A stretch of DNA of 46,617 bases from Parcubacteria group bacterium Gr01-1014_30 (GTDB taxonomy: Bacteria; Patescibacteriota; Minisyncoccia; Minisyncoccales; 2-12-FULL-40-12), in assembly GCA_007376185.1 (NCBI GenBank), contig VMFS01000005.1, positions 1 to 46,617 on the forward strand, given 5' to 3'. The position numbers and the translations under genes are program-made. Below, piece by piece: positions 12,469 through 23,277 of this stretch. How positions within the stretch are numbered: position 1 is the stretch's first letter; every line of letters begins with the position of its first letter. The notes under the pieces are model-generated. The model saw only the letters and a program-made list of their open reading frames with translations, had not been told where the DNA came from and did no database searches.

Positions 12469-12473
12469 TATGA

Positions 12474-12654
12474 ACCCCGTTCGCTGCAGCTCCGCTGCAT
12501 CTCACGCCTCGGATTTCGTCCTCGGCGTTAGAAGTCCTTGGCAGAAAAAATTGCGAAGAAAATTTTTTCTGCGCAGGACAGACGGGGTATAATCAATAAA
12601 CAATGTCTGTCTGAAATTAGTTTTCACTATATAAGGGCAGACTTCTAACGGGGT
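12474..12654. repeat. Complex nested palindrome between pilB and pilC
   Basis: ACCCCGTT/AACGGGGT, GTTAGAAGTC/GACTTCTAAC, GCAGAAAAAATT/AATTTTTTCTGC, GACAGAC/GTCTGTC. Confidence 0.75.
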
Positions 12655-13693
12655 GAAAGAGGAAGTAATATTTTTTACTGAACACTTATCTTTGATGCTT
12701 AAAGGAGGCGTCCCCATTGTTGAAGTTTTGGAAACGTTAAAGAGCGGAATCAAATCGGAATCTTTCAGAAGAGTTCTTGACGATATTTCGAAAAGTATTT
12801 TAGAAGGGAAGAGTTTGTATTGGGCCCTGGGCCGCCATAGCAAAATTTTTGATCAATTTTATATCAGCATAATCAGGATTAGTGAAGAATCGGGAAGTTT
12901 AGAAGAAAACTTAAAGTATCTATCACAGAAACTTCGCCGTGACAACGAGATGAAGAAAAAAGTTAAGGGAGCTTTGATCTATCCAGCAATAATTGTTTTT
13001 CTAGCTCTGGTTATTACTTTTACCACCACTCTTTTTATTTTGCCGAAAATTACCAATCTTTTTCAGTTTTTAGAAATTGATTTGCCGTTGGCAACTAAAA
13101 TTTTAATTTCAGCTACCGTTTTTTTTCAAAAATACTGGCTTTTCATTTTAGTCGGGATAATCGCGAGTTTTGTAATTTTAGGATTTCTGCGAAGGTTAAA
13201 GCTGTTTAAACTTTATTTTGACAAGATAAGTTTATTTTTACCCTTGTTTGGTCCAATCATGAAAAATTTTAATTTACTCTTTCTTTCAAGAACCCTTTTT
13301 ACGCTTTTGAAAAGCGGAGTGCCGTTAATTCAAGCCCTAAGAATATGTGCTGAAACCGTTCCCAACGAGACCTATAAAAGAAATTTGCTTTCGGTGAAAT
13401 TGACAGTGGAGAGAGGAGAGAAAATTAGCAGCGGGTTAGAAAAATTTTCCAAAATTTTCCCGCCCGTTTTTTTCCAAATGGTTTTAGTTGGGGAAAGGTC
13501 GGGAACACTGGAAGAAAGTTTGCTTTATTTGGCTGAATATTATGAAGAAGAGACCGACGCAACCTTAAAAAATCTTTCCAATATTTTAGAACCAGCTCTG
13601 TTAATTTTGGTTGGCATTTTTGTTGCTTTTGTAGCCATAGCCGTTATTGTTCCAATCTATAAATTTACCGGTCAACTACGGTTTCGTCAGTAA
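12653..13693 (+). CDS. pilC: Type IV pilus inner-membrane protein PilC/GspF (GTG start)
   Basis: Duplicated GspF-type domain and TM segments. Confidence 0.88.
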   Translation: MKEEVIFFTEHLSLMLKGGVPIVEVLETLKSGIKSESFRRVLDDISKSILEGKSLYWALGRHSKIFDQFYISIIRISEESGSLEENLKYLSQKLRRDNEMKKKVKGALIYPAIIVFLALVITFTTTLFILPKITNLFQFLEIDLPLATKILISATVFFQKYWLFILVGIIASFVILGFLRRLKLFKLYFDKISLFLPLFGPIMKNFNLLFLSRTLFTLLKSGVPLIQALRICAETVPNETYKRNLLSVKLTVERGEKISSGLEKFSKIFPPVFFQMVLVGERSGTLEESLLYLAEYYEEETDATLKNLSNILEPALLILVGIFVAFVAIAVIVPIYKFTGQLRFRQ

Positions 13694-13696
13694 TCA

Positions 13697-14137
13697 ATGC
13701 CCAATAATCAACCTGGTTTTACTTTGTTTGAAATTTTATTGGCAGTGGCAATTCTAGCTATTTTAATTTCTATAACCATCCCGCTTGGTTTAGATTTTTA
13801 TAAAAGTCAACAGTTAGAAGCTAATACTCAGGGAATTTTACAGACCTTAAGAAGAGCTCAATCAAAGGCCATGTCAGCTGAGTTAGACTTTCCTTGGGGT
13901 GTATATTTAACCAACGATAATTATATTCTATTCAGGGGCAGCTCTTATGCGTCTCGCGACTCCCAATATGATGAAGTTTTTGATTTGCCCTTAACCATTA
14001 GCTTATCAGGCATTTCAGAGATCGTCTTTTCCAAACTGGAAGGAAGACCAAATGTTACCGGAGATATTATTTTGAGTAGCAGTTTGGATGTTATGACAAT
14101 AAACATAAACGAGGCGGGAAGAGTAAACCTTCAGTGA
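13697..14137 (+). CDS. Type IV pilin-like / GspH-like protein
   Basis: Prepilin N-terminus PGFTLFEILLAVAILAILISI. Confidence 0.8.
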   Translation: MPNNQPGFTLFEILLAVAILAILISITIPLGLDFYKSQQLEANTQGILQTLRRAQSKAMSAELDFPWGVYLTNDNYILFRGSSYASRDSQYDEVFDLPLTISLSGISEIVFSKLEGRPNVTGDIILSSSLDVMTININEAGRVNLQ

Positions 14138-15009
14138 CGATGCTGGAAAAAGGACAATCACTTTTAGAATTAATATTGGCAATGGGGATTTTTGTGACCG
14201 TTATTGCCGGCTTGAGTTTTTTTGTCTTAGACAGCTATATTACAGGCCGTCTATCTTATGAAATTAGTAAGGCGGATTTTTTAGCTCAAGAAGGCTTGGA
14301 GGCGGCAAGATCAATAAGGGATAATAATTTTAATGATTTGGTTGCGGGTAGCCACGGACTAACAATTACCCTTGGGCGCTGGACTTTCCAGGGAACCCAA
14401 GAAGATGTTTCCAGCCAGCTGACGCAGGGGATAAGACAAATTCAAATTGAAAATATTGATTCTGATACAAGAAGAGTTACCTCAAGCGTAGCTTGGCTAT
14501 TTAGCGAAGGAAGAAATCAAGAAGTTGAGCTGGTTAGCTATTTGACAAACTGGCAGAAAACTTCTGGCGTTGAAATAAGAAAACCAACTGTTCATAACGA
14601 CCCGTCGCCCAGAAGAACCACCAATGCCGGTAACGCTTATGACTACCCGGACGGAACCACCTTTGCTACAACTAACTATGGCGTTAACAAGAACCCCTCA
14701 ATTACCTTTTACAATTGGCAACTACCAACCCAAGCCTACAACTCTTTAGTCCTAAATTATAGATATCATGCCGGTCAAGCTGCCAACGACCGATATGCTA
14801 TTGCTTATTCAACCACTGGTTGCGCCGGAACTTTCACCAACTTGATTTCTCCGACTTCCTCGGGAGCTCCAGATACTACGGTTTCAGTTATTTTGGACGC
14901 CAGCCAGAATTTGTCTTTGCTTTGTTTGAAAATCTATTCAACGAGAACCGGGTCGTCTGATAACGCGAATCTTTACACCAGAGACATTTGGACTGAAGGA
15001 AGTTTTTAA
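14134..15009 (+). CDS. Pilin-like protein with large C-terminal beta-rich domain
   Basis: GQSLLELILAMGIFVTVIAGLSFFV hydrophobic N-terminus; about 150 aa extra C-terminal region. Confidence 0.65.
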   Translation: MTMLEKGQSLLELILAMGIFVTVIAGLSFFVLDSYITGRLSYEISKADFLAQEGLEAARSIRDNNFNDLVAGSHGLTITLGRWTFQGTQEDVSSQLTQGIRQIQIENIDSDTRRVTSSVAWLFSEGRNQEVELVSYLTNWQKTSGVEIRKPTVHNDPSPRRTTNAGNAYDYPDGTTFATTNYGVNKNPSITFYNWQLPTQAYNSLVLNYRYHAGQAANDRYAIAYSTTGCAGTFTNLISPTSSGAPDTTVSVILDASQNLSLLCLKIYSTRTGSSDNANLYTRDIWTEGSF

Positions 15010-15010
15010 A

Positions 15011-15628
15011 ATGGAAACCCCGCCCTTTCTCCACTCAAGACTTCAGGTTAGTCAACCGCGTAAGGCGAAGCCGCCTATCGGCTTTGGCTATATATTACCT
15101 CAAGCTATCAGTGGAGAAAGGGCGGGGTTTACCTTAGTTGAACTTTTGATTTATACTGGAATTGTTGGCTCAATTTTAGTTGTGACTACCGGATTTTTAT
15201 GGAATATCGTTTTTGGCAGTATCAAAGAAACCGCTTATCAAGAGGTTCAGCAAAATGGAAGATTTGTTCTATTGAAAATGACTCAAGAGATTAAAAAGGC
15301 CTCGGCAATAAACAGCCCCATACCAGGTTCTTCTTTGAGCACCCTTTCTTTGGCCATGGCTAGCAGTTCTTTAAACCCTACAGCGTTTGACGTAATTGGC
15401 GGACGTTTGAGAATTACTCAAGGCAGCAGCAGCCCTTATTACTTAACCAGCGATTTGGTAACTGTAAGCAACATTCAATTCAGCAATCTTTCGTATCCTG
15501 CCACCCCAGGCGCAGTTAGAGTTGAAATGACCATTGAATATATCAATCCCGAAGCAAGAAGCGAGTATCAAGCGGTGATTGATTTAGTTTCTACGGTTTC
15601 TTTGGTTCCTGGGGGAGCCCAACCTTAG
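15011..15628 (+). CDS. Prepilin-type protein with unusually long leader
   Basis: GFTLVELLIYTGIVGSILVV preceded by about 40 aa encoded by a palindrome. Confidence 0.7.
   Translation: METPPFLHSRLQVSQPRKAKPPIGFGYILPQAISGERAGFTLVELLIYTGIVGSILVVTTGFLWNIVFGSIKETAYQEVQQNGRFVLLKMTQEIKKASAINSPIPGSSLSTLSLAMASSSLNPTAFDVIGGRLRITQGSSSPYYLTSDLVTVSNIQFSNLSYPATPGAVRVEMTIEYINPEARSEYQAVIDLVSTVSLVPGGAQP
15015..15130. repeat. Nested palindrome with perfect 21-bp outer arms
   Basis: AAACCCCGCCCTTTCTCCACT (15015-15035) / AGTGGAGAAAGGGCGGGGTTT (15110-15130), inner GGTTagtcAACC and AAGCCGcctatCGGCTT. Confidence 0.93.
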
Positions 15629-15641
15629 TTTCAAAGTTTTT

Positions 15642-16022
15642 ATGCAAAATCGCGGTTTCATAGCTTTAATAACGATTTTAATGGTTTCTGCCGTTGCCTT
15701 GCTAATTGGTTCAGGCCTAAGTTTTCTTAGTATTGGCGAAGCTAAAATGAGTTTACAGAAAAATAAATCTTCCCAAGCCCATTATTTAGTTACAGCTTGC
15801 GTTGAAGAAGCATTAATGAGGTTAAAAAACAACATCAATTATCCGGGAAATGAAATTATCAGCTTGGCTGAAGGTTCTTGCCAGGTTCTGCCCATTGTGG
15901 GCAATTGGACTCTAAGGGTTTCAGCCGATTACGCAAATCAAGTCAAGAAAGTGAGAGTTATAATCAACCAAGTTAATCCCAGTATGGAGATTTCTTCCTG
16001 GCAGGAGGTTGCTGATTTTTGA
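15642..16022 (+). CDS. PilX-like minor pilin/pilus protein
   Basis: MQNRGFIALITILMVSAVALLIGSGLSFLSIGEA. Confidence 0.6.
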   Translation: MQNRGFIALITILMVSAVALLIGSGLSFLSIGEAKMSLQKNKSSQAHYLVTACVEEALMRLKNNINYPGNEIISLAEGSCQVLPIVGNWTLRVSADYANQVKKVRVIINQVNPSMEISSWQEVADF

Positions 16023-16033
16023 GCAAGGCGAAA

Positions 16034-16134
16034 ACCCCACCCTCTATGCTGTTTGTTTTTTTCTAAAAAGGAATTAAAATACGTGTGGCGCTAACAAGTC
16101 CTCGCGGTAAAAATTACTGCTTAGAGGGCGGGGT
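16034..16134. repeat. Palindrome with 16-nt outer arms
   Basis: ACCCCACCCTCTATGC / GCTTAGAGGGCGGGGT (14/16), inner GTAAaaaTTAC. Confidence 0.75.
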
Positions 16135-16149
16135 GCTCACTGTGGTCGC

Positions 16150-17250
16150 ATGTTTAATTTTTTTGGTCGCAAACCTTTTGGGCTGGATATATCTGACTAT
16201 TCAATTGAGATGATTTCTTTGTCTGGCTCGCCAGAAAGTCCACGGCTGCTATCTATGGGCAGAGTAACCTTGGCAGCAGGCATAGTTGAAGATGGAGTTG
16301 TCCTCAATAAGGAAAAATTAAAAGAGCGCTTATTAATTTTGGTTGAAAAGCCGGAATTCGGTAAATTAAAAACCAGACAAATTATTTTCTCTTTGCCTGA
16401 GTCAAAAAGCTTCATTCACATTTTGCCAACGCCTCAGGTTGTCTTGGGGAGAAAAGAAAGGCAGGAAGTTGAGTCACAAATTGAAAGAATTTTCCCCTAC
16501 CCCTTGTCAGATCTTTACTTTGATTATAAAATAAGGCAAGGCGCCGCTTTTGCAGAAATTTTAGCTGTAGCCGCGCCCAAAAAAGTTGTTGATGATTACT
16601 TAGAGGTTTTCAGAAGCTGTCGGCTTTTACCAATTGCTTTAGAAATTGAATCGGAAAGCTTGACGCGCTCTTTGGTAAACGAAGCAGATAAACCATTTTT
16701 AATCGCCGATATTGGAGCCAGAACTACCAATTTTAGCGTTTTTGATGAAAATGGTTTAAGATTGAGTATTTCTCTGCCCGTTGCCGGCAATAGATTAACC
16801 CACATTTTGGCTGAAAAACTAAAGGTTTCTTGGCTCCAAGCAGAAAATCTTAAAAGAGAGGTTGGCCTTAATCCGGATTTAGAAAAAGGAAAAATCTTTT
16901 TAATTTTGCAAAAAGAAATCCAAAAAATAATTTCAGAGATTAAAAAAATTGATGACTACTTTCAAGAAAAAACCAAAAAAGAAATCAAGAAAATAGTTTT
17001 GGCCGGCGGTTCGGCTAACTTGCCCCGTTTAGCTGATTACTTAAGTGAAAATTTGGAGAAGCCAGCAATTGTTATTGACCCGTGGATTAACATAAATATT
17101 GACATTTTGCGCGGAAAAGAATATCTGAAAAAAGCCCTGTTGGTTGACCCCGTTCTTTACTCTAGCGCCATTGGTTCAGCTTTAAGAGGGTTGTTCGATC
17201 AACCTGAAGCAGCTGGCTTGAATTTACTTCCCAAAAGCCGAGAAAAATAA
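16150..17250 (+). CDS. pilM: Type IV pilus assembly protein PilM
   Basis: FGLDISDYSIEMISL, ADIGARTTNFSVF, VLAGGSANLPRLADYL actin-like motifs. Confidence 0.88.
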   Translation: MFNFFGRKPFGLDISDYSIEMISLSGSPESPRLLSMGRVTLAAGIVEDGVVLNKEKLKERLLILVEKPEFGKLKTRQIIFSLPESKSFIHILPTPQVVLGRKERQEVESQIERIFPYPLSDLYFDYKIRQGAAFAEILAVAAPKKVVDDYLEVFRSCRLLPIALEIESESLTRSLVNEADKPFLIADIGARTTNFSVFDENGLRLSISLPVAGNRLTHILAEKLKVSWLQAENLKREVGLNPDLEKGKIFLILQKEIQKIISEIKKIDDYFQEKTKKEIKKIVLAGGSANLPRLADYLSENLEKPAIVIDPWININIDILRGKEYLKKALLVDPVLYSSAIGSALRGLFDQPEAAGLNLLPKSREK

Positions 17251-17252
17251 AA

Positions 17253-17317
17253 CTCCGCACCTTTTCTGCACAGATTGCATTTCATCGCGCAAGGCGCGGC
17301 GCAGAAAAGGTGCGGAG
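17253..17317. repeat. Palindrome with perfect 17-bp arms
   Basis: CTCCGCACCTTTTCTGC / GCAGAAAAGGTGCGGAG, inner GCGCaagGCGC. Confidence 0.9.
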
Positions 17318-17358
17318 AAAGGTCGAAAACAATAAACTGTTAAGATATTTTTTAAATT

Positions 17359-23098: not shown

Positions 23099-23152
23099 CC
23101 ACAGCCCATTTCCAATGGGCTGGGTCGCCCAGCCCTTTAGTAAGGGCTGTGG
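23099..23152. repeat. Double-hairpin palindrome
   Basis: CCACAGCCC/GGGCTGTGG outer; alternative hairpins AGCCCATTtccAATGGGCT and AGCCCTTtagtAAGGGCT. Confidence 0.8.
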
Positions 23153-23277
23153 CGAAATTCGAAATTCGAAACAAATTCAAATGACTAAAATCCAAACTTC
23201 CAAAACCCGCGTTTTTAACATTTGAATTTAGAATTTAGATATTGTTTCGAATTTCGATATTCGGATTTCGAATTTAA
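23153..23277. repeat. AATTCG-rich imperfect inverted repeat
   Basis: CGAAATTCGAAATTCGAAACAAATTCAAATG ... CATTTGAATTTAGAATTTAGATATTGTTTCGAATTTCG. Confidence 0.75.

Follow-up and report, generated by a model that had tools for sequence, protein, structure and literature searches.

Rickettsia palindromic elements (RPE) are palindromic sequences that entered protein genes without breaking the reading frame and were retained there. For pneumococcal repeats, the features of MITEs comprise a size below 200 nt, terminal inverted repeats, strong pairing, target-site duplication and many copies (PMC3049150), while REP elements are defined as 20-40-bp repeats tagged with GTAG/CGTC (PMC3733652). Small, gene-dense genomes leave scarce space for mobile DNA, and the genome studied here (769,151 bases in 11 contigs, all searched jointly and cited below by contig number) has a coding share of ~92% according to a simple ORF count. 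To judge by its size, its genes and its relatives, it probably belongs to the Patescibacteria (CPR). The window, i.e., the whole stretch of 46,617 nucleotides that was analysed, is the entire contig C4. Its pilus cluster contains four palindromes (elements 1 to 4), around which the gene order is pilB, pilC, three pseudopilin-like genes, another small gene, pilM and a pilin gene, with cohesin/dockerin proteins encoded downstream of this pilin.

When compared to MITEs (pneumococcal RUP and BOX, cyanobacterial Nezha), these elements and their genomic relatives are similar in length (44-135 nt for most copies, with few longer ones such as element 1 with 179 nt), terminal inverted repeats, structure, duplication and copy number. 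In contrast to MITEs, they strongly favour start codons, which they regenerate, they combine related interiors with several arm types and their ends are C/G-rich, and a parent IS sharing these ends was not found in their own genome. Element 2 and the other prepilin-leader cases described below resemble RPE in behaviour, as they lie in frame within genes that stay open; however, the main site here is the start codon and not the gene body, and duplications flank the elements. REP/BIME sequences with RAYT are also small, multi-copy, extragenic palindromes, and a RAYT gene exists in this genome, but size, tag, terminal inverted repeats, 4-bp duplications and the repeats flanking the RAYT gene all separate the two cases.

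Results

The four palindromes are present where an earlier note on this DNA had placed them. Their RNA folding z-scores were -5.7, -9.6, -4.3 and -6.6 for elements 1 to 4, respectively, and equal folding was reached in 0 of 200 shuffles for each. The genome-wide inverted-repeat scan suggested by that note revealed a strong excess, with 84 inverted repeats whose exact arms are 14 nt or longer, compared with about 2 in Markov shuffles. In addition, 53 elements with arms beginning with CCCC and ending with GGGG were identified in the 769-kb genome, against 0-2 in shuffled genomes. No Rfam match was obtained for the palindromes, the sole Rfam match in the window being a tRNA. That the arms differ and are not simple copies, as previously noted, is correct for the sequences themselves, but each arm type forms a genome-wide family, and elements 1 to 3 have near full-length copies elsewhere (87-92% identity).

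Element 1 (12475-12653, + strand) belongs to the TTAGAA family, with CCCCG..CGGGG ends, and is matched by a covariance model (R1) at positions 12521-12653 (E-value 1.3e-16). It contains an AT-rich hairpin A (about 12540-12573), a second hairpin and the right arm CTTCTAACGGGG, and its outer 5′ arm carries a secondary insert of ~48 nt (about 12480-12527, + strand) that is also found in two other genomic copies. A full-length copy is located at C6:81376-81559 (87% over 187 nt) and a partial one at C2:23272-23037; the subfamily of element 1 contains an exact TATAAT. The context reads A-TGAA-[CCCC..GGGG]-TGAA-AGAGG, in which the left TGAA of the 4-bp duplication (12471-12474, + strand) and A12470 together hold the original, now severed pilC ATG, an arrangement that recurs in other copies. 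On the right side (12653-12657, + strand), the last G of element 1 and the TG of the second TGAA (12654-12657) form the GTG start (12653-12655) of pilC (12653-13693, + strand), which encodes a type II secretion F family protein (Pfam PF00482, E-value 1e-57). Because of an in-frame TAA within element 1, this GTG is the sole usable upstream start of pilC. Note that the severed ATG to the left of start-codon copies (e.g., 12470-12592 in the window) opens an upstream frame, MNPVRS..., of 7-45 codons; in L100, such a frame stops exactly at the GTGA junction, where translational coupling would be allowed.

The description of all four palindromes as gene-junction elements does not hold for element 2 (15018-15127, + strand, with paired arms reaching 15015-15130), which is located in frame within the prepilin leader of ORF 15011-15628 (+ strand). 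It lengthens the leader of this pseudopilin gene, referred to as n3 (METPPFLH...GERAG/FTLVELL), and has a copy at C6:4363-4472 (92% over 110 nt). Element 3 (16020-16152, + strand), from the CCCCGCCCTCTA family and with CCCC..GGGG at 16035-16133, occupies the gap between the TGA stop of the upstream gene and the ATG of pilM; it has a copy at C2:20012-20126 (87% over 115 nt), and its arm type CCCCGCCC[TC]CTA[AT]GC is found at about 20 loci of the genome. Element 4 (17253-17317, + strand) belongs to the CCCCGCACCTTTT family, whose arm also occurs in arm-matched relatives at C6:14858 and C6:143050; its tip is altered on both sides (CTCC/GGAG) with pairing kept, and its only flanking repeat is AAA(A). 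Directly 3′ of element 4 lies the AAAGGTCGA motif (17318-17326, + strand), which relatives likewise have ahead of their pil5 pilin gene as a conserved sequence. The motif is also present at C6:30646, C6:143050 and C9:94671 and in front of pilin genes from several genera, in many cases with a palindrome directly 5′ of it. No clear target duplication was seen at elements 2 and 3, which may be older or have a different mode of movement.

The core TAAGGCGAAGCCG was found in ~110-nt elements bearing CCCCGCCC, CCCCCACACC and CCCCGTTAGAA arms, and such different arm types on one interior indicate that the elements belong to one superfamily, though their arms differ. The structural family proposed by the earlier note is supported, as the CCCC tip is common, the differing arms are still complementary and interiors are common to different arm types; the dispersal of copies and the duplications at their flanks add to this support. 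Other genera also contain the arm families of elements 1, 3 and 4. An element of the element 3 type precedes the same gene in genome G024 and in the own genome, and therefore some copies may be old and retained; an arm of this type is also located upstream of the L16 gene in G053.

Exact 4-bp direct repeats were found right outside CCCC/GGGG in 11 of all 59 elements, while shuffled pairing gave a mean of 1.0 and a maximum of 5 (2000 trials), 11 being reached in 0 of 2000. The exact pattern CCCCGTTAGAA..TTCTAACGGGG of the TTAGAA family occurs in 26 of 286 genomes of the class (0 for the reversed-pattern control), and the covariance model found copies in 11 of 11 genomes tested, most of them with many. 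In an alignment of 18 copies, the pairing of the end repeats and of hairpin A persists despite changes on both sides, with a consensus of ~130 nt and ends CCCCG..CGGGG. For 51 copies from 10 genomes, picked by model score with flanks disregarded, an exact 4-bp duplication was observed in 31, against 9.4 expected by shuffling (maximum 19), an expectation this high because TGAA recurs; the flanks agree at three or more of the 4 positions in 42 copies. Copies located off start codons are duplicated as well (TTTA, TTGA, CAAG, TAAA), and therefore the repeats are not merely start-codon sequence.

A start codon is regenerated at one end in 35 of these 51 copies (binomial P about 2e-38), and in 36 if ribosomal protein L36 (38 aa), which falls below the 40-aa cut, is counted; the null of 3.6% corresponds to uniform random insertion in the non-coding DNA of the own genome, so that selection against other sites is not separable from targeting. 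The typical insertion divides A/TGAA, the last G of the element and the duplicated TG making a new GTG. This G+TG regeneration concerns 26 copies, 23 in the orientation of the element and 3 in the opposite one, and this bias suggests some effect on expression; an intact ATG lies one base further in 9 of the 35 start-codon copies. Eight genes of the own genome start at such junctions, including those for SSB and ribosomal protein L36, further junction-start genes encoding a tetrapyrrole methylase family protein and a TraG-like ATPase. Several copies also contain an in-frame ATG that extends the downstream gene. In the TTAGAA family as a whole, TATAAT-like sequences were not enriched (6 exact matches against 3.1 expected from shuffles), and a family-wide promoter role was rejected on this basis.

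Elements were also identified at Gly-Phe codons of four prepilin genes (n3 of the window, n3 of L047, C6:10391 and L139), with a TTTA duplication at C6:10391 and L139. In all four cases the frame stays open, and the terminal GGG of the element encodes the glycine that precedes FTL.E and the cleavage site.

The orthologous junctions were compared in eight relatives with syntenic pilus clusters, the nearest of the genomes compared being 48-61% identical in PilC; two weak Proteus matches were all that a contig scan for close relatives yielded. L046, L049 and L051 have a short pilB-pilC junction, and unrelated inserts occupy it in L045 and L047. The n3 leader is short and uninterrupted in six relatives, while L047 has a different in-frame palindrome at the same codon as element 2 (ATGGAAA[CCCC..GGGG]TTTACC). 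The junction between n4 and pilM is empty in L045, L046 and L050. Before pil5, L045 and L046 have an uninterrupted AATAAAGGTCGA or AATAAAAGGTCGA, and the window, L048 and L049 carry three different palindromes just 5′ of the AAAGGTCGA motif. These orthologous junctions are mostly without elements or with unrelated inserts, which indicates that the palindromes are insertions and not ancestral control structures.

Other repeats and nested structures were observed in this genome. Complete tRNA genes (Met, Thr, Pro, Gly, Glu) are boxed by CCCC..GGGG arms (C10:21613-21717, C10:43103-43207, C2:4406-4508, C7:69503-69602 and C1:12751-12857 of G000) and are located within the anticodon arm of a second, tRNA-like gene, the halves of which lie on either side of the boxing arms. 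The same nesting exists around a tRNA-Pro in another genus (L168:1475-1693), where the outer T-loop contains a second palindrome. The genome also has three group I introns (Rfam RF00028), at C2:50548-50773, C10:862-1077 and C10:20629-20828, two of them in interrupted tRNA genes reported with introns by ARAGORN; as a source of the tRNA gaps they were rejected, since they are separate from the palindromic nests. Finally, an AT-rich CGAAATTCGAAA palindrome at 23150-23260 of the window, with dozens of partial genomic copies, represents another dispersed repeat family.

Discussion

Our results make it highly probable that each of the four palindromes arose by insertion of a mobile, non-autonomous palindromic element of the MITE-like kind. 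Copies, duplications, empty sites, start-codon placement and orientation bias were all observed; transposition as their cause, an enzyme acting in trans and translation from the new starts are what we infer from these sequence features. The superfamily would be defined by its CCCC/GGGG tips, by arms that are complementary but come in several sequence types, and by an interior that is short and structured. Insertion of a TTAGAA element would duplicate about 4 bp of the target, mostly TGAA within an ATGAA start codon, and since G is the last base of the element, the junction would read G+TGAA, the gene would regain a GTG start and it would remain translatable. Where the duplication is TATG, the original ATG would survive intact. 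For element 2 and the three similar cases, in-frame insertion at Gly-Phe codons would let the terminal GGG provide the glycine. Transposition of non-autonomous palindromes by an enzyme in trans would be the simplest account. The preference for start codons may reflect either targeting or selection, i.e., best survival at these sites, and the interior hairpins common to copies could instead be functional RNA.

With regard to an autonomous parent, no TTAGAA-type pair 0.4-4 kb apart and no autonomous insertion sequence with matching ends up to a 4-5 kb span were found in the own genome. The long CCCC..GGGG pair at C8:26669-28689 was rejected as a parent since it encloses no ORF over 90 aa, as were the other long pairs that were translated, which enclose ordinary ORFs. 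Very long CCCCG-type inverted repeats are located at C8:26669-28689, without large ORFs, and C8:28771-33366; both are probably rRNA processing stems.

The earlier note also proposed RNA processing or stability sites setting pilus stoichiometry. Conserved cis-regulatory RNA structures native to the junctions (attenuators, translational switches or processing hairpins), which would set the pilus subunit ratios, agree with the strong folds, with hairpins that adjoin start codons, with the 23 to 3 orientation bias at GTG junctions and with the arms of the element 3 type, which occur at the same junction before the same gene in G024 and before the L16 gene in G053. We nevertheless regard such an origin as unlikely, since the orthologous pilus junctions are for the most part either empty or occupied by other inserts, these elements also turn up at unrelated loci (those of ribosomal protein, SSB, methylase and tRNA genes) and duplications flank them; a putative regulatory by-product of the elements is possible. 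Intrinsic transcription terminators are hardly credible: GC-rich stems do lie between co-directional genes, but, in agreement with the absence of a convincing T-run noticed earlier, no + strand T-run terminator follows any of the four, element 2 is within a reading frame and element 1 includes a start codon.

Mobility itself may be explained differently. The genome has one Y1_Tnp gene (C6:22653), and the elements are palindromic, mostly extragenic and multi-copy, as would be expected of REP elements moved by its RAYT. However, this single RAYT-type Y1 transposase gene (C6:22653-22973, L001) lies inside GGGACTGTCCC inverted repeats and not CCCC-tipped ones, no GTAG or CGTC tag was found, and the present elements are longer, with terminal inverted repeats and 4-bp duplications; mobilisation by RAYT was rejected because the only Y1 transposase is flanked by different repeats, which makes this reading very improbable. 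A mobile translation-start cassette, which would spread by altering expression and carry its own leader, and sometimes a promoter or start codon, hence a single orientation, deserves more credit, although we still doubt it. The orientation bias, the exact TATAAT in the element 1 subfamily, the internal in-frame ATGs that extend downstream genes and the short MNPVRS... frame opened by the severed ATG all argue for it, whereas the family-wide TATAAT count does not exceed that of shuffles and the upstream frames vary in length.

Beyond the preferred reading of MITE-like insertions, we tentatively raise the idea, less probable than not, of a class-wide mobile family dedicated to start codons. Its machinery would select starts at the DNA, RNA or ssDNA level, its ends would have evolved to rebuild the codon and to act as a portable leader, and CCCC-tipped cousins would in like manner carry tRNA genes into tRNA anticodon arms. 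In the open literature searched, with bioRxiv outside the search, no report of such elements in Patescibacteria/CPR was found.

Conclusions

By supplying a replacement for the start codon on which it lands, an element would have a simple means of spreading that spares its host. In annotations of such genomes, these insertions would account for GTG starts and N-terminal extensions that look unusual, and for short frames of the MNPVRS type. They also provide a countable target rule and a search handle, i.e., CCCCGTTAGAA ends with a TGAA duplication, which may lead toward the missing transposase.
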